Below, one piece after another: positions 50,983 to 63,799 of a stretch of DNA of 64,000 nucleotides (position 1 is the first letter of the stretch; every line of letters starts with the position of its first letter). This DNA comes from Pseudolabrys sp. (GTDB lineage: Bacteria; Pseudomonadota; Alphaproteobacteria; Rhizobiales; Xanthobacteraceae), in contig JAHCKG010000023.1 of the NCBI GenBank assembly GCA_026125895.1, positions 1 through 64,000 on the forward strand, read 5' to 3'. The position numbers and the translations under genes were made by a program. The notes under the pieces are model-generated. The model was given only the letters and a program-made list of their open reading frames with translations, made no database searches and was not told the DNA's origin.

Positions 50983-52434
50983 GTGACGATGGCCCGCACA
51001 CCCGAAGAGACCCGGCCCGGCAAGATGGCGCCCCTGGCGCGGCTGCCGGTGTTCTTCGCGCTCGCCGGCAAGCGCGTCGTGCTCGCTGGTGGATCGAATG
51101 CGGCAGCGTGGAAGGCCGAGCTGATGCTCGCCGCCGGCGCGCGGCTCGAGGTCTATGCCGAAGAATTCTCCGAGGAGATGCGCGCTGTCGCCGCCGACAC
51201 CGCGGCCGGCACCGTTGCGCTGATCGATCGCGCCTGGACGCCGAACGATCTTGCCGGCGCGGCGCTCGCGATTGGCGCCTTCGAGGATGACGAGGGCGCG
51301 GCGGCGTTCGCCGAAGCCGCGCGCGCGGCCGGCGTGCCGGTCAATGTCATCGACAAGCCGGCTTGCTGCGACTTCTCCTTCGGCGCCATCGTCAACCGCT
51401 CACCCTTGGTCATCGGCATCTCGACCGACGGCGCCGCGCCGGTGTTCGCGCAAGCGATCCGCGCCAAGCTGGAATCGTTGCTGCCCACCGGCTTCACCGC
51501 CTGGGCTGCCGCGGCGTCGCGCTGGCGCGACAAGGTCAAGGCCTCGGGGCTGTCCTTCGCCGGCCGCCGCAAGTTCTGGCAGGTGTTCACCGCGCACGCG
51601 ATGACGAATGCCGAGAGCGCGCCGACGGAAGGCGACTTCGAGCGTTTCGTCGCCGAGGTGAAGGGCCTCGGCGCCGCGGTCGAAAGCGGCACGGTCACGC
51701 TGGTCGGCGCCGGGCCGGGCGATCCGGAACTGCTGACCTTGCGCGCTGTGCGGGCGCTGCAATCCGCCGACGTCATTCTGTTCGACGATCTCGTCTCGCG
51801 CGGCGTTCTCGACTTCGCCCGGCGCGAGGCGCGCAAGCTGCTGGTCGGCAAGACCGGCTTCGGTCCGTCCTGCAAGCAGGAGGACATCAACGCGCTGATG
51901 GTGTCGCTGGCGAAGCAGGGCAAGCGCGTGGTCCGCCTCAAGGGCGGCGATCCCTTGATCTTCGGCCGCGCCGGCGAGGAGCTCGATGCCTGTGCGGCGA
52001 ACGGCATCAAGGCCGAAATCGTGCCCGGCATCAGCGCCGCGCAGGGCGCCGCCGCGTCGCTCGGCCTGTCGCTGACCGACCGCAAGCATTCGCGCCGCCT
52101 GCAATACATCACCGGCCATGCGCAGAATGGCCGGTTGCCTTCCGACATCGACTGGCGGGCGCTGGCCGATCCGGTCACCACCACGGCGATCTACATGCCG
52201 GTGCGGACGCTCGAGACGCTGGTCGCAACAGCACTGCACAATGGTCTCGATCCGGCGACGCCCGCGGCCGCCATTGCCCGCGCCACGCGGCCCGATCAGC
52301 AGGTGGTGCGCGCCGCGATCGCCGATCTGCCGGCGCGGCTCGCCGAGGCGAAGCTGCCCGGCCCGGTGCTGGTGATGCTCGGCGCCACGGTGGGCGCGGT
52401 CGCGCCGGCTCAGCCTGCCGCCGCGCGGATCTGA
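50983..52434 (+). CDS. cysG: Siroheme synthase (multifunctional)
   Basis: 483 residues. N-terminal precorrin-2 dehydrogenase/ferrochelatase module (VFFALAGKRVVLAGGSNAAA), C-terminal uroporphyrin-III C-methyltransferase (VTLVGAGPGDPELLTLRAVR near 238; VVRLKGGDPLIFGRAGEE; EIVPGISAAQGAAA). Makes the siroheme needed by CysI. Start is GTG 50983 or ATG 50989. Its TGA ends two bases from the stop codon of the convergent TPR gene. Confidence 0.95.
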   Translation: MTMARTPEETRPGKMAPLARLPVFFALAGKRVVLAGGSNAAAWKAELMLAAGARLEVYAEEFSEEMRAVAADTAAGTVALIDRAWTPNDLAGAALAIGAFEDDEGAAAFAEAARAAGVPVNVIDKPACCDFSFGAIVNRSPLVIGISTDGAAPVFAQAIRAKLESLLPTGFTAWAAAASRWRDKVKASGLSFAGRRKFWQVFTAHAMTNAESAPTEGDFERFVAEVKGLGAAVESGTVTLVGAGPGDPELLTLRAVRALQSADVILFDDLVSRGVLDFARREARKLLVGKTGFGPSCKQEDINALMVSLAKQGKRVVRLKGGDPLIFGRAGEELDACAANGIKAEIVPGISAAQGAAASLGLSLTDRKHSRRLQYITGHAQNGRLPSDIDWRALADPVTTTAIYMPVRTLETLVATALHNGLDPATPAAAIARATRPDQQVVRAAIADLPARLAEAKLPGPVLVMLGATVGAVAPAQPAAARI

Positions 52435-52436
52435 CT

Positions 52437-55400
52437 TTATCGCAGACTGATGACGTTGCGCGGCCGCGGCTGCGGATGTGGTGTCGCCCGCGGCTTCACC
52501 TGCGGCGGCGGCGCGACGGACCGCGTCGTCACCCGGCGCGGCGCTGTATGCGGCCGGGCCTGTGGCATCGGCACCGCATCGGCATCGGTTGCCTGAGCAT
52601 GGGCGGCCGTGGCCGCCGGCGCTTCGGCGCGCGGTGACGGAGCCGCCGCGGGCGCATCCACCTTGGCTTCCGGCTTCGCCGGCGCGGCGGCGCTGGCCGG
52701 CCCGAGCAAGGCCGGGCTCGGCGGCGGGAAGGTCTCCGGCGAATAGGCGTAGCTGTTGTACTGGTTGTTGCGGATCGGCTGGCTGGCGTCGCGGATGATG
52801 CGGTCGCCCTCGCGGCGGTTCTCGTAGGCGACGCCGCGGCCGGAGAAGTTCGCCGCATAAGCCGGCTTCTGCTCGATCAGCGCATCCGCCGTTGCAATGG
52901 TGCGGTCGAAGTCGCGGCGGTCGGTGGTGAGGCCGCGATCCAGCATGGCGGCGGCGAAATTGGCGTTGAGCTTGATCGCCTGGTTCATGTCGCGGCTCGA
53001 CTTGTCGAAGTCGCGGGTGTCGTAGTGGGCGAAACCGCGGTTGTAGAGCGCCAGCGCATAATTCGGATCGATGGCCAGCGCCGCGTTGTAGTCGGCGATG
53101 GCGCGCTCCAGGTCGCGCTTGTTGCGGAAGGAGAAGCCGCGGTTGTTCAGCGCGCGGGCATTCTTCGGCTCCAGCTTGAGCGCCTGGCTGAAGTTCTGGA
53201 TGGCGCTGTCGAAGTCGCCTTTGGCATCGTAGGCGAGGCCACGGCCGTTATAGGCGTCGGCGAAGTTCGCATCGAGCTTGATCGCCATGTCGTAGTCGGC
53301 AATGGCGCGGTCGAAATCGCGCTTGTCGACATAGGCGCTGGCGCGGTTGAAATAGGCAAGCACGTAATTGGCGTCGATCCGGATCGCCTCGCCGAATTCG
53401 GCGATGGCGTGGTCGGCGTCGCCCTTGTTGCGCAACGCGAAGCCGCGGTTGTTATGGGCGACGGCGTTGCCGGGGTCGAGCTTGAGCGCGGCGTCGAAAT
53501 CGGCGATCGCGGCGTCGTTCTCCCCGCGCAGGCCGCGCGTCGTGCCGCGGTCGGTGAGCGCCGCGGACGACTTCGGATCGAGCTTCACCGCGTGGTCGAA
53601 GTCGGCGAAGGCGCGCTCGGTGTCGCCCTTCATGCGCAGGGCGCGGCCGCGGCTCTGATAGGCCAGCGCCTCCTTCGGATCGAGCCGGATCGACTGGGTG
53701 AAGTCGGAGGCGGCGCGGTCGAAGTCACGCTTGTCGCGCCAGGCGACGCCACGGCGGTAATAGGCCTCGGCGGAGTTCGCATCGTAGCGCAGCGCTTCGG
53801 TGAAGTCGGCGATGGCGCGATCGACGTCCTTGCGCTCGTAGGCGGCGCTGCCGCGTTGCAGATAGGCGAGCGCGAACTTGCCGTCGAGCTTGATGGCATC
53901 GCTAAAGTCGGACGCGGCGCGGTCGATATCGTTCTTCAGCCGATAGGCGATGCCGCGGTTGTAGAAGGCGAGCGCATTGGAGCGGTCGTAGCGGATCGCC
54001 TCGGTCAGATCGATGATGGCCTTGTCGGCGTCACCGGTGGCGCCATAGCTCAGGCCGCGGTCGTAATAGGCGATGGCGAAATCAGGCTTCAGCTTGATGG
54101 CGGCGCCGAAGTCGGCGATGGCGCGCTCGTACTCGCGCTTGGCCTGCCAGGCGCTGCCGCGGTTGTAGTACGCCACGGCATAAGTCGGATTGAGCTTGAT
54201 CGCCTGGTCGAAGCTGGCGATCGCCTGATCGAGCTGACGCTTGTCGCGCAGCGCCAGGCCACGGTTGTAGAAGGCAAAGCCGTTGCCGGGATCGAGCTTC
54301 ACCGCCTGCTCGAAATCGGCCAGCGCGCGATCGACATCGCCGCGGGCGCCGTAGGCGACGCCGCGGTCGTTGTAGGCTTGCGCGAATCCGGGATTGAATT
54401 TCACGGCCTGGGTGAGATCCGCCAGCGCCTTGTCGAAATCGCGGACATTGGCATAGGCGTTGCCGCGGTTGTTGAGCGCGGCGGCGTCGGCCGGCGACAG
54501 CTTCAGCGCGCTCGAATAGTCGGCGGCGGCGGCGGCGTAGTCGCCCTTGTCGTATTTGGCGTTGCCGCGGTTGTAGTAGGCTGCGGCGTAACTCGTGTTG
54601 AGCTTGATCGCCTGGTCGTAATCGGCGATGGCGCGGTCGAGTTGGCCCCTGGCGGCCTGGACGATGGCGCGGTTGTTGAAGAGCGGCGCGTATTGGCCGT
54701 TGATGGCGATGGCCTGGTTGAAGTCGGCGAGGGCGCGGTCGGTGTCGCCCTTGATGCCGAAGACGATGCCGCGGTCGTTGTAAGCCAGCGCCTGGCCGGG
54801 GCTGAGCCGCACGGCCTGGGTCAGGTCGGCGAGCGCCTTGTCGTAGTCGCCCTGGCTCGCCAGCGCATAGCCGCGGGCGCTGTAGGCGACCGGCAGCTTG
54901 CCGTCGATGTTGAGCGCCTGGTTGTACTGCTGGATGGCGCGGTCGAACTCGTTTTTCTCCTGGAACGCGGTGCCGAGATTGTAGAAAGCCTGCGCGTTCT
55001 TCGGATCGAGTTTCACGGTCTGCTCGAAATCGGCGATGGCGCGGTCGAACAGCTCGCGGTCGTAATGCGCCACGCCGCGGTCGTAATAGGCCAGCGCGTC
55101 CTTCGGATTGAGCTTGATCGCGGCGTTGTAGTTGGCAACCGCCTTGTCGATGTCACGCTTCTGATAGAAAGCATTGCCGCGGTTGTAATAGGCGGCCGAG
55201 AAATTCGGATTGATCTTCAGCGCGCGATCGAAATCGGCGATGGCGCTGTCATGATCTTTCTTCGCGGCGGCGGCGATGCCGCGGTCGTTGTAGGCGAGCG
55301 CGAAGATCGGGCTGACCTGGAGCCGGACCTCGTCGTCCTGGGTGTCGCGGTCGTAGCCGCGCTGGCCGCGGATGTCGCTGCCGCGCGGGCTCGCGGCCAC

Positions 55401-58400
55401 CGCATAGCTCGGCGCCAGCTTCACCGCCGCCTCGAAATCGGCGATGGCATGGGCGTAGTCGCGCTTCTCGTAATGCAGGATGCCGCGGTCGTGCAGAGCG
55501 AAGGCGTCCTTGCCGTCGATCTTCATCGCCTTGTCGAAGTCGGCGAAGGCGCGTTCGGTCTGACCCTTGTCGGCGAAGGCGTTGGCGCGGTTGTAGTAGG
55601 CCGCCTCGTAGTTCTCGTTGAGTTTGATCGCTTCGCCGAAGTCGGCGATGGCGCGGTCGGTGTCGCCCTTGCGGCGCCAGGCGACGCCGCGGTTGTTGAA
55701 GGCGACGGCATTGGCCGGGTCGAGCTTGAGTGCGGCGTCGAAATCGGCGATGGCCTTGTCGGTGTCGCCCTTGGCGCCATAGGCGATGCCGCGGTCGTAG
55801 TAGGACTTCACCGAATTCGGATTGAGCTTGAGCGCCTGCGTCAGGTCCTGGATGGCGCGTTCATAGTCGCGCTTGTCGTAATAGGCGATGGCGCGGTTGG
55901 AGAAGGCCATGGCGAAGTTCGGGTCGATCTTGGCGGCCTGGCTGAAATCGGCGATCGCGCGGTCGCGTTCGCCACGCGCGCGCCAGGCGATGCCGCGGCC
56001 GTTATAGGCGGCCGCCAGTTTGCCATCGAGCTTGATGGCCTGGCTGAGGTCGGCGATGGCGCGCTCATAGTCCGGCTTGCCGACATAGGCCTGGCCACGC
56101 GCCAGATAGGCGTCGGCGTTGCCGGGATTGAGCTTGATCACCTGATCGAGATCGCGGATGGCGCGGTCGTTATAGCCGCCGGACTGCAAGGTCTCGCCGC
56201 GATTGAGCAGCGCCGCCGAGAAGCCGGCATTGATGGCGATAGCCTGGTCGAAGTCCTTCAGCGCCTTCTCGGTCTGGCCCTTGGCCTTGTAGGCGAGGCC
56301 ACGGCTGTTATAGGCGAAATCGGAATGCGGATCGGCCTTGATGGCGCGGTCGAAGTCGGCGATGGCGCGGTCGAAGTCGCCCCGCTCCTGGTACAGCGTG
56401 CCGCGGCTCGCCAGCGCCAGCGCGAAGTTCGGATCGAGGCGGATCGCCTGATCGAGATCGGCCAGCGCCTTGGCCTGCTCGCCCTTGCGCAGCCAGAGCT
56501 GCGCGCGGCTGTTGAAGACGCCGGCATAGTTCGGGTTGAACTTGATGGCCTGCTCGTAGTCCTGCAGCGCGCGATCGATCTTGCCGCGCAGCGCATAGGT
56601 GTTGCCGCGCTCGGTGAAGGCGGCGCCGTATTTGGGATCGAGCTTGATCGCCAGGTCGTAATTGGTGATGGCGCGGTCGTAGTCGCCCTTGCCCTGATAG
56701 GCGTTGCCGCGATCGACGTAAGCCGCGGTGAACTTCGGGTCGAGCCGGATGGTCTGGTCGAAATCGGCGATGGCGCGGTCATAGTCGCGCCGTTCGCGAT
56801 AGGCGAGGCCGCGGGCATGGGCGGCGACCGCATCACGTGGGTCGAGCTTAACCGCCTGCGACAGGTCGGCGACGGCGCGGTCGTAGTCGCGCCGCGCATG
56901 GTTGGCGACGCCGCGGTTGTAGTAGGCGGCGCCGAAGTTGGGGTTGAGCCTGATCGCCTGGTCGAAATCCTGGAAGGCGTGTGCGTCGTCGCCCAGGCCC
57001 TGATAGGCGAGCGCGCGGCCGTTATAGGCGGCGGCGTTGTTCGCATCGAGCTTGATTGCCTGCGTGAAGTCGGCGACCGCCGCTTTGAAGTCCCGCTTGT
57101 CCTGGAAGGCGAGGCCGCGGTTGAAGTAGGTGCCCGGATAATTCGGGTTGGCCTTGATCGCCTCGTTGAAGTCGGCGATGGCGCGGTCGTAGTTGCGCTT
57201 CTTCTGGTAGGCGTCGCCACGGTTGGCCAAGGCCGGCGCATAGGCCGGATCGATGCGCAGCGCGGTGTCGTAGTCGGCAATGGCGCGGTCGCCTTCACCC
57301 TTGGCGCCATAGGCCATGCCGCGTTGATTGAGCGCCGCGGTATAATCCGGCTTGATGTTGATCGCCTGGTTGAAGTCGCTGATGGCGCGGTCGTAGTCGC
57401 GCTTCTCGAACAGCACGGTGCCATGCTCGTACCAGGCCTGCGCGTTCTGCGAATCGAGCTTGATCGACTGCTCGAAGTCGGCCAGGCCGCGCTCGAGCTC
57501 GCCGCGCGCGCGATAGGCCAAGCCGCGCTGGAAGAAGGCCAGCGCGTTCTTGCCGTCGAGCTGGATCGACTGGCTGAAATCGGCGATGGCGCGCTCGCCA
57601 TTGCCCTGCGCCTTCAGCGCCAGGCCGCGGTTGTAGAAGGCCTGCGCGTTGCGCGGGTCGATCTTGATCGAGCGGTCGAAGTCGGCGATGGCGCCGTCAT
57701 TGTCGCCGCGGGCGATGTTGACGACGCCGCGGTTGTAATAGGACAGCGAATCCTTGGGGTCGAGCTTGATCGCCTGCGACAGGTCGCTGAGCGCGCGGTC
57801 GTAATCGCGCTTGGCGAAATAGGAGACGCCGCGGTCGTAATAGGCGAGTGCGTATTCGTTATCGAGGCCGATCGCCCGGTCGTAGTTGGTGATGGCGCGG
57901 TCGTAGTCATGCTTGTCGTAATAGGCGTTGCCGCGGTTGTAATAGGCCAGCACGTAATTCGGGTTCAGCAGCACCGCCTGGTCGTAATCCTTGATGGCGC
58001 GATCGGTCTCGCCGCGATTGCGGTAGGCGAGGCCGCGGTTGTTGTAGGCAAAGCCGTCGCGCGGATCGAGCAGAATGGCCTGGTCGAAGTCCTGAATGGC
58101 GCGCTCGACCTGCCCCTTGGCGGCATAGGCGATGCCGCGGTCGTTGAGCGCCAGGATGAAGTCGGGCTTGAGCCGGACCGCCTGGTCGAAGTCCTGGATG
58201 GCGCGTTCGTAGTCGCGAAGGTCACGGTAGGCGAGGCCGCGGGCGTGCAAGGCGACGGCGTCGCCGGCATTGAGCTTGATGGCGCGATCGTAGTCCGGAA
58301 TGGCCCGGTCCGGCTCGCCCTTGGCGCGATAGGCCATGCCGCGATTGAAATAGGCGATGTTGTCGTTGCTGTTGAGCTTGATCGCCGCATCCAGCGTGCC

Positions 58401-58919
58401 GATGGCGGCGTCGTATTTGCGGCGGTCGTAATAAAGGTGGCTCAGCGATTTGAGGGCTTCGCCGTTGCGGCCGTCGAACTTGATCGCCTGCTCGAAATCA
58501 CGGAGCGCGCGGTCGCTGTCGCCGCGGTCGCGCTGCGCCAGTGCGCGATTGTAATAGGCCTCCGCATTCTTGCCGTCGAGCGCGATGGCCTCGTCGAAAC
58601 TGCGGATGGCGCCTTCGGCGTCGCCGCGCGTGCGCTTGTCCTTGCCGGCGGCGAGGAGATCTTCCGCTTTCTTCTGCTGCTGGGCGGCCTTGTTCTTGGC
58701 GAACTTCGCCTTGTTGCGCTGCGCGGCGGCGCGTTGCTTGGCGTTGTGCGAGCCGGCGACGATGGCATCGCAGGCCGCGATGCGCTGCTCGTTGCTCGCT
58801 TCGCCGAGGCCGTCGCATTGCTTGATCTGATCCTTGGTCACGGCAACAGCCGGCGTCGCCGCGATGGCGACGATCGCGGCGGCGAGAATCAAAGTTCCTG
58901 TGCGCATTCCCAGAATCAT
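52437..58919 (-). CDS. Giant secreted tetratricopeptide-repeat protein (about 58 TPRs)
   Basis: 2160 residues. Signal peptide (MILGMRTGTLILAAAIVAIA, cleaved near AVAV), a short Cys-containing and Lys/Gln/Ala-rich helical segment, then an uninterrupted TPR array (bases 52758-58670), and a ~105-residue Pro/Ala-rich tail ending PRPRNVISLR. I counted 58 units of exactly 34 residues (consensus like AYYNRGxAYxxKGDYDRAIADFDQAIKLDP, given in halves: AYYNRGxAYxxKGDYDRAIA, DFDQAIKLDP); unit 33 of the array is degenerate and the last two decay. Units differ enough that the array is not a recent tandem expansion. A perfect superhelix this long would be a periplasmic or surface protein scaffold; role unknown. 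Start 58919 or 58907 (ATG). Confidence 0.92.
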   Translation of the reverse strand: MILGMRTGTLILAAAIVAIAATPAVAVTKDQIKQCDGLGEASNEQRIAACDAIVAGSHNAKQRAAAQRNKAKFAKNKAAQQQKKAEDLLAAGKDKRTRGDAEGAIRSFDEAIALDGKNAEAYYNRALAQRDRGDSDRALRDFEQAIKFDGRNGEALKSLSHLYYDRRKYDAAIGTLDAAIKLNSNDNIAYFNRGMAYRAKGEPDRAIPDYDRAIKLNAGDAVALHARGLAYRDLRDYERAIQDFDQAVRLKPDFILALNDRGIAYAAKGQVERAIQDFDQAILLDPRDGFAYNNRGLAYRNRGETDRAIKDYDQAVLLNPNYVLAYYNRGNAYYDKHDYDRAITNYDRAIGLDNEYALAYYDRGVSYFAKRDYDRALSDLSQAIKLDPKDSLSYYNRGVVNIARGDNDGAIADFDRSIKIDPRNAQAFYNRGLALKAQGNGERAIADFSQSIQLDGKNALAFFQRGLAYRARGELERGLADFEQSIKLDSQNAQAWYEHGTVLFEKRDYDRAISDFNQAINIKPDYTAALNQRGMAYGAKGEGDRAIADYDTALRIDPAYAPALANRGDAYQKKRNYDRAIADFNEAIKANPNYPGTYFNRGLAFQDKRDFKAAVADFTQAIKLDANNAAAYNGRALAYQGLGDDAHAFQDFDQAIRLNPNFGAAYYNRGVANHARRDYDRAVADLSQAVKLDPRDAVAAHARGLAYRERRDYDRAIADFDQTIRLDPKFTAAYVDRGNAYQGKGDYDRAITNYDLAIKLDPKYGAAFTERGNTYALRGKIDRALQDYEQAIKFNPNYAGVFNSRAQLWLRKGEQAKALADLDQAIRLDPNFALALASRGTLYQERGDFDRAIADFDRAIKADPHSDFAYNSRGLAYKAKGQTEKALKDFDQAIAINAGFSAALLNRGETLQSGGYNDRAIRDLDQVIKLNPGNADAYLARGQAYVGKPDYERAIADLSQAIKLDGKLAAAYNGRGIAWRARGERDRAIADFSQAAKIDPNFAMAFSNRAIAYYDKRDYERAIQDLTQALKLNPNSVKSYYDRGIAYGAKGDTDKAIADFDAALKLDPANAVAFNNRGVAWRRKGDTDRAIADFGEAIKLNENYEAAYYNRANAFADKGQTERAFADFDKAMKIDGKDAFALHDRGILHYEKRDYAHAIADFEAAVKLAPSYAVAASPRGSDIRGQRGYDRDTQDDEVRLQVSPIFALAYNDRGIAAAAKKDHDSAIADFDRALKINPNFSAAYYNRGNAFYQKRDIDKAVANYNAAIKLNPKDALAYYDRGVAHYDRELFDRAIADFEQTVKLDPKNAQAFYNLGTAFQEKNEFDRAIQQYNQALNIDGKLPVAYSARGYALASQGDYDKALADLTQAVRLSPGQALAYNDRGIVFGIKGDTDRALADFNQAIAINGQYAPLFNNRAIVQAARGQLDRAIADYDQAIKLNTSYAAAYYNRGNAKYDKGDYAAAAADYSSALKLSPADAAALNNRGNAYANVRDFDKALADLTQAVKFNPGFAQAYNDRGVAYGARGDVDRALADFEQAVKLDPGNGFAFYNRGLALRDKRQLDQAIASFDQAIKLNPTYAVAYYNRGSAWQAKREYERAIADFGAAIKLKPDFAIAYYDRGLSYGATGDADKAIIDLTEAIRYDRSNALAFYNRGIAYRLKNDIDRAASDFSDAIKLDGKFALAYLQRGSAAYERKDVDRAIADFTEALRYDANSAEAYYRRGVAWRDKRDFDRAASDFTQSIRLDPKEALAYQSRGRALRMKGDTERAFADFDHAVKLDPKSSAALTDRGTTRGLRGENDAAIADFDAALKLDPGNAVAHNNRGFALRNKGDADHAIAEFGEAIRIDANYVLAYFNRASAYVDKRDFDRAIADYDMAIKLDANFADAYNGRGLAYDAKGDFDSAIQNFSQALKLEPKNARALNNRGFSFRNKRDLERAIADYNAALAIDPNYALALYNRGFAHYDTRDFDKSSRDMNQAIKLNANFAAAMLDRGLTTDRRDFDRTIATADALIEQKPAYAANFSGRGVAYENRREGDRIIRDASQPIRNNQYNSYAYSPETFPPPSPALLGPASAAAPAKPEAKVDAPAAAPSPRAEAPAATAAHAQATDADAVPMPQARPHTAPRRVTTRSVAPPPQVKPRATPHPQPRPRNVISLR
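52758..58670 (-). repeat. Tandem 102-base TPR-coding array
   Basis: Fifty-eight consecutive 102-base units in phase with the 34-residue TPR. Each encodes helix A (xAYYNRGxAY) and helix B (DRAIADFDQAIKL). Unit conservation is patchy, with YNRG and DRAIADF nearly invariant. Confidence 0.9.
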
Positions 58920-59104
58920 GGCGGCTTGTCTCGTTTCCCCCGGTGACCGGCCTGCATGACGCCGTCTCCCGCCTTGAGCGGCAGACGCAGGCAATCATGC
59001 AGCGAGTGGAAACGATATGCGCGCACAAGCCGCAGTTAACATTAATCCGCCCGGCGCGCGGGCGGACCTGCGGAATTAACAATGTTGGGTGGCTGGCGCC
59101 GTTT

Positions 59105-59141
59105 AATAAACAAAGCGCCGCCCGTTGCCGGCGCGGCGCTT
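59105..59141 (-). terminator. Terminator of the CHAP-like gene
   Basis: Read on the minus strand, a 9-bp stem aagcgccgc / gcggcgctt with an 11-base loop is followed by tttgtttatt. It lies between the CHAP-like stop and the start region of the TPR gene. Confidence 0.75.
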
Positions 59142-59165: not shown

Positions 59166-59762
59166 CTACTGCTGCTGCTGTTGTTTGATCGCGGCAGCAC
59201 GGGCGGCGTTGGTGATCTCCTTGAGCACGTAATCCGGCGGCATCACGTAGGCCAGGACCTTTTCCTTCGGATAGGCCGACTGGCGCACCATATTTCCGCT
59301 GTTGCCGGAGATCAGGATCGGGTTGCCCTGGCCGTCGGTGCCGCGCACCACGCCGACATGGCCGTTTTGCGGGCCGCCGCGGCGCAGGATGGCGATGGCG
59401 CCGACGCGCGGGCCGTCGAGCCTCTTGCCGAACTCGAGGAACGAGCGCGCCGCGCGCGAATGCGTGCCCTTGGCGCCGGCTTTCTTGATGACGAAGTTCA
59501 TGAAATCGGCGCACCAGAGTTGCGCCGGCAGGCCGAGCTGCTTGGCGTTGGCGCCGCGGTAGCGCAGGGCTTCGAGCAGGATCGAAGCGCCGCCCGGCAC
59601 CTGCGCGGCCTGATCGGCGGCTTCGGCGCGGCTGCGCGAGATGGTTTCGAGCGGCTCGACGTTGGCGAACCGTTCGTTGCGCTTCACGGTCGCAGCGGAC
59701 GACGTCGATGCGATGCCGACGACCAGACTGCAAACCAGCGCTGTTGCGTAAGATCGTTTCAT
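59166..59762 (-). CDS. Secreted CHAP-like (TIGR02594-type) protein
   Basis: 198 residues. Signal peptide to about residue 23 (STSSAA), then an NlpC/P60-CHAP fold with Cys84 in LWCADFMNFVIKKAG, His135 in GHVGVVRG and a polar residue in SGNSGN, the order of the Cys-His-Asn triad. Such proteins cut or bind peptidoglycan. The C terminus is a run of five Gln. Neighbours the giant TPR gene and the TonB operon on the same strand. Confidence 0.87.
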   Translation of the reverse strand: MKRSYATALVCSLVVGIASTSSAATVKRNERFANVEPLETISRSRAEAADQAAQVPGGASILLEALRYRGANAKQLGLPAQLWCADFMNFVIKKAGAKGTHSRAARSFLEFGKRLDGPRVGAIAILRRGGPQNGHVGVVRGTDGQGNPILISGNSGNMVRQSAYPKEKVLAYVMPPDYVLKEITNAARAAAIKQQQQQ

Positions 59763-59999: not shown

Positions 60000-60842
60000 T
60001 CAGCGAATGCTGTAGCTGATCGGGATGACGATCGCGATGCGGGAGCCCGGCACTTCGGCGGGCGGCGCCGGCAGCGGCGAGGCCCGTTCGATCATCGCCA
60101 AGGTCTCGCGGTCGAGAAGTTGCGAGCCCGATGAGCCGACCACGCGCGCATTGTGCACGCCGCCCTGACGGTCGATGCTGAACGACAGCCGCACCACGCC
60201 GCGGTCGCCGCGCGATTGCGCTTCCGCCGGGTAGCGCTTGTGGCGTTCGATCTGGGCGAACAGCCGCGACTTCCAGTTCGGCATCGCGTTGGAATCGCGG
60301 TTGGCACCGGGAGTGGGCGCCGCGGCGCGGTCGGCGCGGTGGTCGGCCGAGCTCGGCGCCGAGGCGAGCGAAGCCTGCCGCGGCTGCGGTTTCTTCTTTT
60401 TGACTTCCTTCTTCTTCTCGTCCGGCTTCTCTTCCGCCTTCTGCGGCGGCCGCGGCGGCGGCAGCATCGCCACTTCGGCCTGCGGCTCCGGCTTCATCTC
60501 GACCGGCTTCTCGGCTTCGGGCTCCGGCTCGGTCTTGGCCTCTTCGACCGGCTTTTCCGGCTCGGGCAGCGGCTCCGCCTTCTCGACGACTTCTTCCGGC
60601 TTCTCGGGCGCCTTCTCGACGCCGGTCTGCATTTGCCGCGCGACCGAATCCGGCGGCACTTCCGTCGGCGTCGTTTGCGGCGCGACGGCGACCGGCGCGA
60701 GATCGAGCATGATCACCGGCGCGCTCGCCAGTTGGTCGGCGTCATCGCTCCAGCGCGCCATCAGCACCGCGGCTCCGCCGGCATGGATGCCGAGCGCGGC
60801 GACAAAGCACAGGCTCCAGCGGGCGAGCGATGCCGGTTTCAT
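60000..60842 (-). CDS. tonB: TonB-family energy transducer
   Basis: 280 residues. One N-terminal span ([20 protein letters not shown]), a long Pro/Glu/Lys-rich periplasmic linker ([33 protein letters not shown]) and a C-terminal TonB domain ([40 protein letters not shown]). Transfers proton-motive force from ExbB/ExbD to outer-membrane receptors. Last gene of exbB-exbD-tonB, four-base overlap with exbD. Confidence 0.92.
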
Positions 60843-61270
60843 CGGGGCGGCGCCGTCCCGGTATCGAGCCCGACCAGCGCGACGTGCAGATAGCCGCCGC
60901 TGCGCAGTTCGTTCATCAGGTCCATCAGGTCGCCGTAAGGCACGGTCTTGTCGGCGCGCAGGAACACGCGCTGGTCCTTGTCGCCGGTGGTGGCGCTGTC
61001 GAGCGCGGCGGTGAGCGAGGCGCGCGGCACCGTGTCGTTGTTCAGCGCCAGCGACAGGTCGGACTTGAGCGTCAGGAAGATCGGCTTGTCCGGCCGCGGC
61101 GACTTCTCGGCATTGGCCGCGGGCAGATCGACCGAGACATCGACCGTCGCCAGCGGCGCCGCGATCATGAAGATGATCAGCAGCACCAGGATGACGTCGA
61201 TGAAGGGCGTGACGTTGATCTCGTGGATCTCGCCCAGACTGTCGTCGCCGTGATCGAGCCGCACGCCCAT
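60839..61270 (-). CDS. exbD: Biopolymer transport protein ExbD
   Basis: 143 residues, one membrane span near the N terminus ([20 protein letters not shown]) carrying the conserved proton-relay Asp, and the periplasmic domain including [20 protein letters not shown]. Overlaps tonB (ATGA) and follows exbB after six bases. Confidence 0.94.
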
Positions 61271-61276
61271 GGGTCG

Positions 61277-62224
61277 TTACTCCGCGGCGGCGACGCCGCG
61301 GCGGCGGCGGTCGAAGGCGCCGCGTTCGAGCTCGCGGCTGACGAGGCGCATGATCGAGGCGGTGGCGTCGGCGTTGAGCGCGCGATATCCGGCGATCCAG
61401 CGCGAGAAGAAGTTGTACATCACCACGGCCGGGATGGCGGCGACGAGGCCGAGCGCGGTGGCGAGCAGGGCCTCGGCGATGCCCGGCGCGACCACGGCGA
61501 GATTGGTGGTGTGCGCCTTCGAGATGCCGATGAACGAGTTCATGATGCCCCAGACGGTGCCGAACAGGCCGACGAAGGGCGCGGTGGCGCCGACGGTGGC
61601 GAGAATGCTGGTGCCGCGCATCATGGCCCGGCCGGCGGCCGCTTCGGCGCGCTCGAAGCGCGAGGCGATGCGTTCCTTGACGCCGTCGGGCGAGACCGCA
61701 TGCGCGCCCGCCGCTTCGACCGAGAGCTGCAATTCGGCATCGGCTTCGCGCAGCAACGGCGCGACGCCGCCGCTGGCGCCGAGCTGCGCCCGGGCGTCGT
61801 CCCAGGTGCGCGCCGCGCCGATGGCGGCGATGCCGCGGCGCAGCCGCCCGCTCGCCCGCGCCAGTTCGAGGAGCTTCGCCAGCCAGATGGTCCAGGTCAG
61901 CACGGAGGCAAAGGCGAGGCCGACCATGACGGCTTTGACGACGATGTCCGCCGCCATGAACATGCCCCAGGGCGACAGGTCGCGCGGCAGCGTGATCGCC
62001 GCCGGCGCAGCGGCTGCGGGAGGACTTGCGGCAGGACTTGCGGGCGGACTTGCGGGCGGACTTGCGGGAGCGGCTGCCGGCGCGGTCGTCGCGCCCGGAG
62101 GGACGGCCGTCTGCGCAGCTGTCAAAACGGGAGACGCCAGGATCGCGATGAGTGCGAACGCCGCCCCGACGGCGCGACGGGTCATGATTGACTTGGCCGC
62201 TGGGAGTTTCGAGTTCACCGACAT
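61277..62224 (-). CDS. exbB: Biopolymer transport protein ExbB
   Basis: About 315 residues. A secretion-signal-like N terminus ([20 protein letters not shown]) and a Pro/Ala/Ser-rich linker with repeated [10 protein letters not shown] precede the three-span MotA/TolQ/ExbB core ([40 protein letters not shown]). The long N-terminal extension is the alphaproteobacterial form of ExbB. Start uncertain (62230, 62224 or 62185). An Irr-type motif lies ~150 bases upstream. Confidence 0.92.
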
Positions 62225-62375
62225 TCTCATTCCGCTGGGAGAAGGTTCCGGCGGGCCCTGATGCCCAAGGGGCGTCATGCTAGCCGACCGATCGGCGCGA
62301 CCCTATAGCAGCAATGCAACGCCGAAAACCCTTATTCGGGTGCGCCGCGTAGATTTTAGTCATTCAAATCAGAGG

Positions 62376-63154: not shown

Positions 63155-63670
63155 TTATTCGCGATACGAAACCCGCTGCCCGTCGTAGTCGCCGCCGCCC
63201 GAGTAGCGAGCGCCGCCATCCGGACCGCAGTTACAGTTGACGCCGCGAACTTCGCGCCGCTCGTTGATCACCCGGGTGCCGCCTGCAACGTAACGGTTGA
63301 CCGTTTCGTTGCGGGCCTCGGTGGTGAACCGGTTGGTGGTGTTCACCTTGTGCAGGGTGATGTTGCGGACCACCGTGTTCTGACGGTGCACCACGACTTC
63401 ACGATTGACCACCGGCTGGACGTGAACGACCAGGCGGTTTTCCTGACGCAGGTGCGTACGCTTCACCTCGCGGGTGTGATCGACGTAGCGAACGCGGGTG
63501 TTAACCCGGGGCGCGCCGCGGACCACTTTGCGGGTGTTGTATTCCGAGTCCGGCCTGCGGCAGTTACAGACCGAGTCGTAGTAGGTGCCGGCGGAAGCAG
63601 GCGTCGGGGCGATATTCGCCAGGCCGATCACCAGCAGAGCACCGCCGATGAGTGAGGTAAGGTGTTTCAT
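63155..63670 (-). CDS. Secreted Val/Arg/Asn/Thr-rich protein, function unknown
   Basis: 171 residues. Signal peptide (MKHLTSLIGGALLVIGLANI, cleaved near ASA/GT), a Cys pair CNC at the start and another CNC near the end (NCNCGPDGG), and between them runs of alternating hydrophobic and polar residues (RLVVHVQPVVNREVVVHRQN) that predict a beta-rich fold. No family recognised with certainty. ATG 63670 gives a standard signal peptide; upstream in-frame ATGs give none. Confidence 0.75.
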   Translation of the reverse strand: MKHLTSLIGGALLVIGLANIAPTPASAGTYYDSVCNCRRPDSEYNTRKVVRGAPRVNTRVRYVDHTREVKRTHLRQENRLVVHVQPVVNREVVVHRQNTVVRNITLHKVNTTNRFTTEARNETVNRYVAGGTRVINERREVRGVNCNCGPDGGARYSGGGDYDGQRVSYRE

Positions 63671-63799
63671 TTTGATACGCCCGTTAACCATATAAGTGAT
63701 GCCGCCATCTATATTTTTTGCCTTGTTAACCATTTTTGTAAAGCATTTTTTTACGCCGCCGGCGCGCCAGGCGGGTAATTCAAGCCGTAGTGGCGCGTT

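Follow-up and report, generated by a model that had tools for sequence, protein, structure and literature searches.

Two lines of earlier work frame the protein described here. One concerns how tetratricopeptide repeat (TPR) arrays grow: Zhu et al., in the excerpted text of their paper, separate recently amplified TPR arrays from ancient, differentiated ones (PMC5074805). The number of repeats per protein is given as 2–20 in the excerpted text of a review (PMC7279152), and as 28 for a human example in that of another paper (PMC11514114). The other concerns TPR proteins of the cell envelope: according to the parts consulted of two papers, endopeptidases dock on NlpI to form complexes, and a link to PBP1A/LpoA is possible through PBP4, which can bind both partners at the same time (PMC7049810; PMC11211486). 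The subject here is a gene of the soil bacterium Pseudolabrys sp. (Alphaproteobacteria, Rhizobiales), found in a window of 64,000 nucleotides that forms positions 1 to 64,000 of contig JAHCKG010000023.1 (assembly GCA_026125895.1). It occupies 52437..58919 on the minus strand, stop codon included, and a single open frame, profile matches and orthologues all point to one giant, probably exported TPR protein of 2160 residues. Its repeat number is probably held by selection, and in the genus it is paired with a gene for a putative wall hydrolase.

Repeat number of the giant array

All units between residues 85 and 1988 are 34 residues long, carry the TPR signature positions and stand in one fixed phase. 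The TPR_1 profile (PF00515) scores 1190 bits over the whole protein; at E≤0.001 it finds 69 matches in the window's own genome, 52 inside the giant gene and 17 on other contigs. AlphaFold2 models of residues 27–1036 and 1003–2075, built on 23 aligned sequences each, have a mean predicted local distance difference test score (pLDDT) of 93.6 and 88.4, with a predicted template modelling score (pTM) of about 0.5, which makes the folds reliable locally and leaves the path of the superhelix as a whole uncertain. Helix pairs are modelled for units 2–33 and 35–57, that is 32+23=55 TPRs, with unit 2 included although its first helix belongs to a longer helix; each of these 55 is an antiparallel pair stacked in a solenoid, which is not true of units 34, 58 and 59. 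The models match the TPR chain of OGT (6eou) and a designed consensus TPR (9qhb) with template modelling (TM) scores, of the target, of 0.91 and 0.95. The sequence-only reading had described about 58 perfectly phased TPRs without a linker; the single 34-residue phase holds, and the count has to be lowered to 55 in two blocks with a repeat-length spacer between them, a figure that is close to 58 and not equal to it. Mean unit-to-unit identity is flat over lags of 1–29 units (0.37–0.41); no higher-order duplication within the array is seen.

Whole repeats have been neither gained nor lost in any of 29 complete orthologues, which span four genera at 47–88% identity. These comprise 25 of the 31 rows of the main alignment to the window protein, together with G030, G061, G033 and G161; some are closely related to one another, for example L043 and L050. 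A contig edge or a broken frame kept G009, L037, L042, L045, L049 and L053 from being counted as complete (the broken frame of L053 yields many ragged gaps, left unmended), and L054 (794 residues, 41% identity), L056 and L057 were left out of the main alignment. Insertions and deletions within the array are of 1–3 residues, with a single larger case of 9 residues (L041) and none of 34. The spacer carries small ones in 6 of the 11 rows of an alignment that includes outgroups, and a one-residue insertion at 1998–1999, common to most rows, lies just beyond the last regular unit. When units are matched individually, the best partner is the unit at the same position for 58 of 58 units in G004 and for 25 of 58 in G001 (55% identical). 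The check that the sequence-only reading proposed, for variation of repeat number across neighboring genera, thus finds none among the 29.

A comparison within the same genus is provided by a secreted-looking TPR protein of about 13–14 units encoded in the same genome (L082, 1114–3669). Among 27 genus relatives of this control (42–89% identity over the TPR region), 18 differ by at least one whole 34-residue unit, with L105 (unclear gaps) and L107 (cut) scored as unchanged. The six nearest relatives (72–89% identity) show no whole-unit change, and the other 21 account for all 18; below 70% identity, whole-unit change is seen in 0 of 23 giant rows versus 18 of 21 control rows. The comparison was made row by row rather than by counting events on a tree. 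Control changes map to five separate sites, and a single ancestral change can underlie several rows, so that perhaps no more than about five events took place. Neighboring units are about 40% identical in amino acids in the giant protein and 27% in the control, a value that may be low because the control's unit phase is less regular. As the control's units are the less alike of the two, a missing recombination substrate does not explain the constant length of the giant array; its adjacent units, being more similar, have more chance of unequal recombination, not less. Divergence of the units as the cause of constant number is therefore not supported by the control. The ratio of nonsynonymous to synonymous substitution rates (dN/dS) is 0.10–0.23 in five orthologue pairs, as expected of purifying selection, and this, together with 0 of 29 versus 18 of 27 changed rows, makes selection on length the best account.

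A putative wall-enzyme partner gene

Upstream of the giant gene, at 59166..59762 on the minus strand, lies a gene for a putative exported peptidoglycan hydrolase of the CHAP/TIGR02594 type, a partner assigned from family scores, motifs and co-occurrence. It scores 30.8 against a cut-off of 26 for PF05257 and 103.8 against 70.55 for TIGR02594; its motifs LWCADF, GHVG and SGN, of which the first two presumably hold the catalytic Cys and His, do not vary across 28 of 28 aligned rows (26 genus sequences and two from other genera). A search of the CHAP sequence against solved structures gave no match at E≤1. The giant gene is found at E≤1e-90 in 28 of 43 genus genomes, and in 19 of 28 when the count is confined to genomes at least 90% complete and at most 5% contaminated; a CHAP orthologue (E≤1e-56) occurs in exactly the positive 28 of the 43. 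Of the 15 giant-negative genomes, five lack any CHAP match at E≤1e-25, and in the other ten no CHAP match is stronger than E 1e-33.

The genes next along are those for TonB (60000..60842), ExbD (60839..61270) and ExbB (61277..62278), all recognized by profile match on the minus strand; on the other side a cysG-like siroheme synthase gene, named from its sequence, lies at 50983..52434 on the plus strand. The order exbB, exbD, tonB, CHAP, giant gene is kept in all 26 positive Pseudolabrys loci compared, loci with too little flank not being among the 26. The empty site was inspected in 6 of the 15 negative genomes. In five of them exbB-exbD-tonB is intact, with tonB abutting cysG (L075, L076, L079 and L080) or the next gene (L078); in the sixth (G146, locus L077), a TonB match of just 39% lies next to that same next gene and neither ExbB nor ExbD is found, so this genome is not part of the ExbB+ExbD tree. 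In this tree, whose inner support is partly low, the five negatives do not form one clade: at least three changes are required (approximately unbiased test, p 0.006). With empty sites and negatives that are not one clade, the CHAP and giant genes behave as a cassette that has been lost or gained on more than one occasion. Co-occurrence in the same 28 genomes marks CHAP as the giant gene's apparent partner, and the empty sites make a TonB partnership unlikely: the TonB system stays behind in five genomes that have no CHAP-giant pair, and so would be only a neighbor flanking the cassette. The sequence-only reading had placed the protein beside a CHAP-type wall enzyme and a TonB system; the CHAP, TonB, ExbD and ExbB neighbors are confirmed, the TonB system as flank only.

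Outside the genus the giant gene keeps other company. In all five complete non-genus loci (G153, G203, G030, G061 and G033, from three genera) it stands head to head with a gene for a class A penicillin-binding protein (PBP), identified by its Transgly and Transpeptidase domains in the L060 protein and by tblastn elsewhere; CHAP lies within 7 kb in four of the five. TonB, ExbB and ExbD gave no match at E≤1e-3 near the giant genes of the outgroup loci compared. Thus, where the sequence-only reading held that no known pathway explains the protein, its context proves informative, through co-occurrence with CHAP and through adjacency to a class A PBP elsewhere. After the PBP gene comes one for an exported-looking protein of 345 residues (L060, 13889–14929), which has no Pfam match and has relatives in 46 of 198 family genomes; at ten loci examined its neighbor is a class A PBP.

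The wider distribution is uneven. Scanning genome contigs yielded 31 loci, most of them in records titled Pseudolabrys, Rhizobiales or similar, including Pseudolabrys sp. Root1462, which is not titled a metagenome-assembled genome. In the family sample 27 of 198 genomes match at E≤1e-60; 13 of these have a frame of more than 2000 residues, eight within the genus and five in three other genera, and in G074 and G168 the giant gene is split or broken. An order-wide search matched only the window's own genome, of 397, at E≤1e-75, which is weak evidence of absence, as at most five candidates per genome were scored among the matches listed. An assembly artefact can be set aside: giant frames occur on the single-contig genomes G004 (2176 residues) and G010 (2152 residues), and also in Root1462. 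No report of the protein was found in the literature searched, in which coverage of subscription papers is mostly lacking.

Several other features of these loci deserve mention. Antisense to the giant gene runs an open frame of 1973 codons (plus strand, 53025–58946). As a real gene it is rejected in favor of a codon-use effect: 100 synonymous shuffles gave a mean of 1654 and a maximum of 2157 codons, against an observed stop-to-stop length of 2094, and of 13 orthologues examined (range 478–2138) no more than three have such a frame above 2000 codons. A second CHAP-like gene of the same genome (contig 2; L083, 4407–5471), which shares 52% identity with the CHAP of the window across 153 residues, adjoins a gene judged by eye to be clpB-like; much of the genus has paralogues of this sort. 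At 63155–63733, minus strand, lies a gene for an exported-looking protein of 192 residues, with no Pfam or NCBIfam match, relatives of which are found near exbB at many Pseudolabrys loci. On the far flank, the window has cysG directly after cysI; L076, L079 and L080 have an extra, distant cysI-like and cysJ-like pair (25–27% and 39% identity) between the two.

Domain layout and a proposed role

Read from the N-terminus, and on the minus strand throughout, the protein begins with a probable Sec signal peptide (residues 1–26; 58842..58919), a hydrophobic stretch ending in the cleavage motif A-V-A, of which A24 and A26 (AxA) are invariant in seven aligned orthologues. The sequence-only claim of a signal peptide is accordingly plausible, and the protein is probably exported. 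An N-terminal cap follows (residues 27–84; 58668..58841; drawn from alignments and the model); its C35 and C50 are the sole cysteines of the protein, invariant in 23 aligned sequences, and as a possible disulfide pair they would suit the oxidizing periplasm. No lipobox or membrane anchor is seen by eye: the cleavage region reads AVA-VTKDQ and the first cysteine is residue 35, so that the lipobox of NlpI has no counterpart. Such features would fit a periplasmic location better than one outside the cell.

PF00515 matches, the repeat phase and the models delimit TPR block 1, of 32 units (residues 85–1172; 55404..58667), and block 2, of 23 units (residues 1207–1988; 52956..55301). Between them lies the spacer (unit 34, residues 1173–1206; 55302..55403), which has no PF00515 match and is non-helical in the model. 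Behind block 2 come degenerate C-terminal units with a conserved YENRREGDRI-type motif (residues 1989–2060; 52740..52955; alignments and model), of which units 58–59 (1989–2056) are not TPR-folded and are modelled partly at low confidence. The last part, by alignment, is a Pro/Ala-rich tail (residues 2061–2160; 52440..52739). This tail, noted in the sequence-only reading, is real, though poorly conserved: it is the least conserved part in the one pair compared, and in five outgroup giants further TPR-like sequence after the array takes its place. Also upheld is the core of that reading: a TPR superhelix of extreme length, probably exported and encoded next to a wall-type enzyme of the CHAP kind. 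Conservation peaks instead in units 5–10 (residues 187–390; 57750..58361), where the conservation profile gives a mean major-residue frequency of 0.85–0.89, against 0.64–0.84 in most other units. Conserved residues that differ from the array consensus are few: 16 at the thresholds used, of which units 4, 5, 7 and 8 hold seven. Units 5–10 are the place where one would look first for a binding face.

Taken together, this anatomy and the neighboring genes lead to the idea of a scaffold for wall enzymes: a soluble, periplasmic TPR protein of fixed length that would hold peptidoglycan enzymes much as NlpI does, from outside the NlpI family. This is the reading preferred here, tentatively, at somewhat less than an even chance. 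After export the giant protein would remain periplasmic. Units 5–10 would dock a partner on their conserved face, with CHAP as the first candidate, and other stretches would bind the wall or more of its enzymes. Cutting would thereby be placed at a set distance from synthesis, and the constant length would be what selection protects. A stricter version makes of it a molecular ruler, in which each of the 55 units is kept, the conserved N-terminal patch carries a dedicated wall hydrolase and spaces it from peptidoglycan synthesis, and the two genes are gained and lost as a cassette; this is possible and decidedly more doubtful. TPR superhelices have 7–8 units per turn and rise 5.5–7 nm per turn, from which 55 units are estimated to span about 40–50 nm. 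Such a length exceeds the width of the periplasm, so the superhelix would have to run parallel to the wall or be bent where the spacer lies.

A number of observations weigh against a wall-enzyme scaffold. CHAP domains are also present in enzymes that do not cut walls. The adjacency of the CHAP and giant genes means that one deletion removes both, related genomes are not independent, and several of the 15 giant-negative genus genomes are incomplete. A terminator-like hairpin (59115–59134, minus strand) lies between the two genes, which may then be transcribed separately; such matches are fewer than in shuffles, and a scan for promoters and terminators gave nothing above shuffles. G033 has no CHAP nearby, and in Pseudolabrys the class A PBP is not adjacent to the giant gene. 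The 345-residue protein is absent from all 11 genus genomes searched. In six family genomes chosen for having its gene and no giant frame, five (L115, L116, L117, L118 and L121) carry PBP and 345-residue genes together, so the PBP does not need the giant protein; the sixth (L119) has the 345-residue gene with no PBP or CHAP there. The PBP/345-residue pair can thus occur by itself and may be older.

Other roles can be proposed for so long a protein. Its length and probable export signal would suit a stiff rod, structural or adhesive, at the cell surface or secreted, with CHAP helping its passage through the wall; the CHAP-giant pair is moreover present or absent as a cassette, as surface traits often are. 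Such a rod seems rather unlikely, as neither the sequence nor the 25 Pfam families listed show a surface anchor, a lipobox, an autotransporter barrel or a known secretion tag, the tail is not conserved (five outgroup proteins ending otherwise, in TPR-like sequence) and the linked genes are of wall-enzyme types. A scaffold for the export or processing of exopolysaccharide, with CHAP opening the wall, would follow the periplasmic TPR parts of BcsC, PgaA and AlgK, whose arrays do serve known exporters. We consider it unlikely: no barrel or glycan synthase appears among the scanned neighbors (part of the window's genes), the two models contain no barrel-like region, and in other genera the neighbor is a class A PBP.

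TPR grooves bind peptides, and this might make the protein a general periplasmic chaperone or holdase, beside which CHAP would act independently; strict pairing with one enzyme family in the genus, and conservation that is uneven and position-specific, leave this improbable. That TonB-ExbB-ExbD should pull on or move the superhelix, as part of an energized machine, is suggested by the fact that each of the 26 positive loci compared has all three genes and CHAP next to the giant gene. It is very improbable, given the retention of exbB-exbD-tonB in five cassette-negative genomes (tonB abutting cysG in four and the next gene in one) and the lack of matches to the three at E≤1e-3 in outgroup loci. 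Hardly any weight attaches to neutral expansion by duplication, with a length that has no meaning. All units share one consensus, from which it follows that the array arose by amplification; but the array predates the split of the four genera, and a neutral length is contradicted by the control comparison and by the low dN/dS.

Comparison with known TPR systems

NlpI of E. coli is among the closest known likenesses of the proposed scaffold: the gene of the giant TPR protein stands in linkage with that of a putative wall hydrolase and, outside the genus, with that of a class A PBP. NlpI differs in being an outer-membrane lipoprotein with four TPR-like repeats per monomer, whereas the giant protein has 55, in two blocks, and no lipobox; its array is more than ten times longer and of fixed length. 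The NCBIfam model for NlpI does reach 516 against a cut-off of 250 bits, summed over 23 repeat stretches, and for that reason the pass is no test of kinship. Models for MamA, PrsT and PilW likewise exceed their cut-offs by summing 8–19 repeat stretches, with model lengths of 204–899 positions, and the giant protein is far longer. Because such passes add up repeats, MamA, PrsT and NlpI are unfit for naming it. Should it indeed bind CHAP, the protein would stand at the extreme of the TPR adaptors by which wall cutting and synthesis are coordinated.

BcsC, PgaA and AlgK also have periplasmic TPR arrays that organize envelope enzymes, in polysaccharide export with barrels or synthases; the scanned neighbors of the giant gene include neither. 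The TPR superhelices of OGT, SPINDLY and consensus-designed proteins have the same local fold, as the matches to 6eou and 9qhb indicate. They differ in having far fewer repeats, about 8–16, and in being cytoplasmic or synthetic; we know of no function that the giant protein shares with them.

Tandem-repeat proteins can gain and lose units, as the sister TPR protein does in this very genus; an unchanging array of 55 units is therefore a clean case of length selection, and why a cell should need one particular length of envelope scaffold becomes a testable question. The TPR domain of protein phosphatase 5 has three repeats, against 55 in the giant protein. That domain is the example given for scenario b in the excerpted text of Zhu et al., in which amplification precedes the common ancestor and the repeats then diverge singly at a fixed number, as they do here (PMC5074805). 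The giant array is an extreme case of the ancient, differentiated kind.

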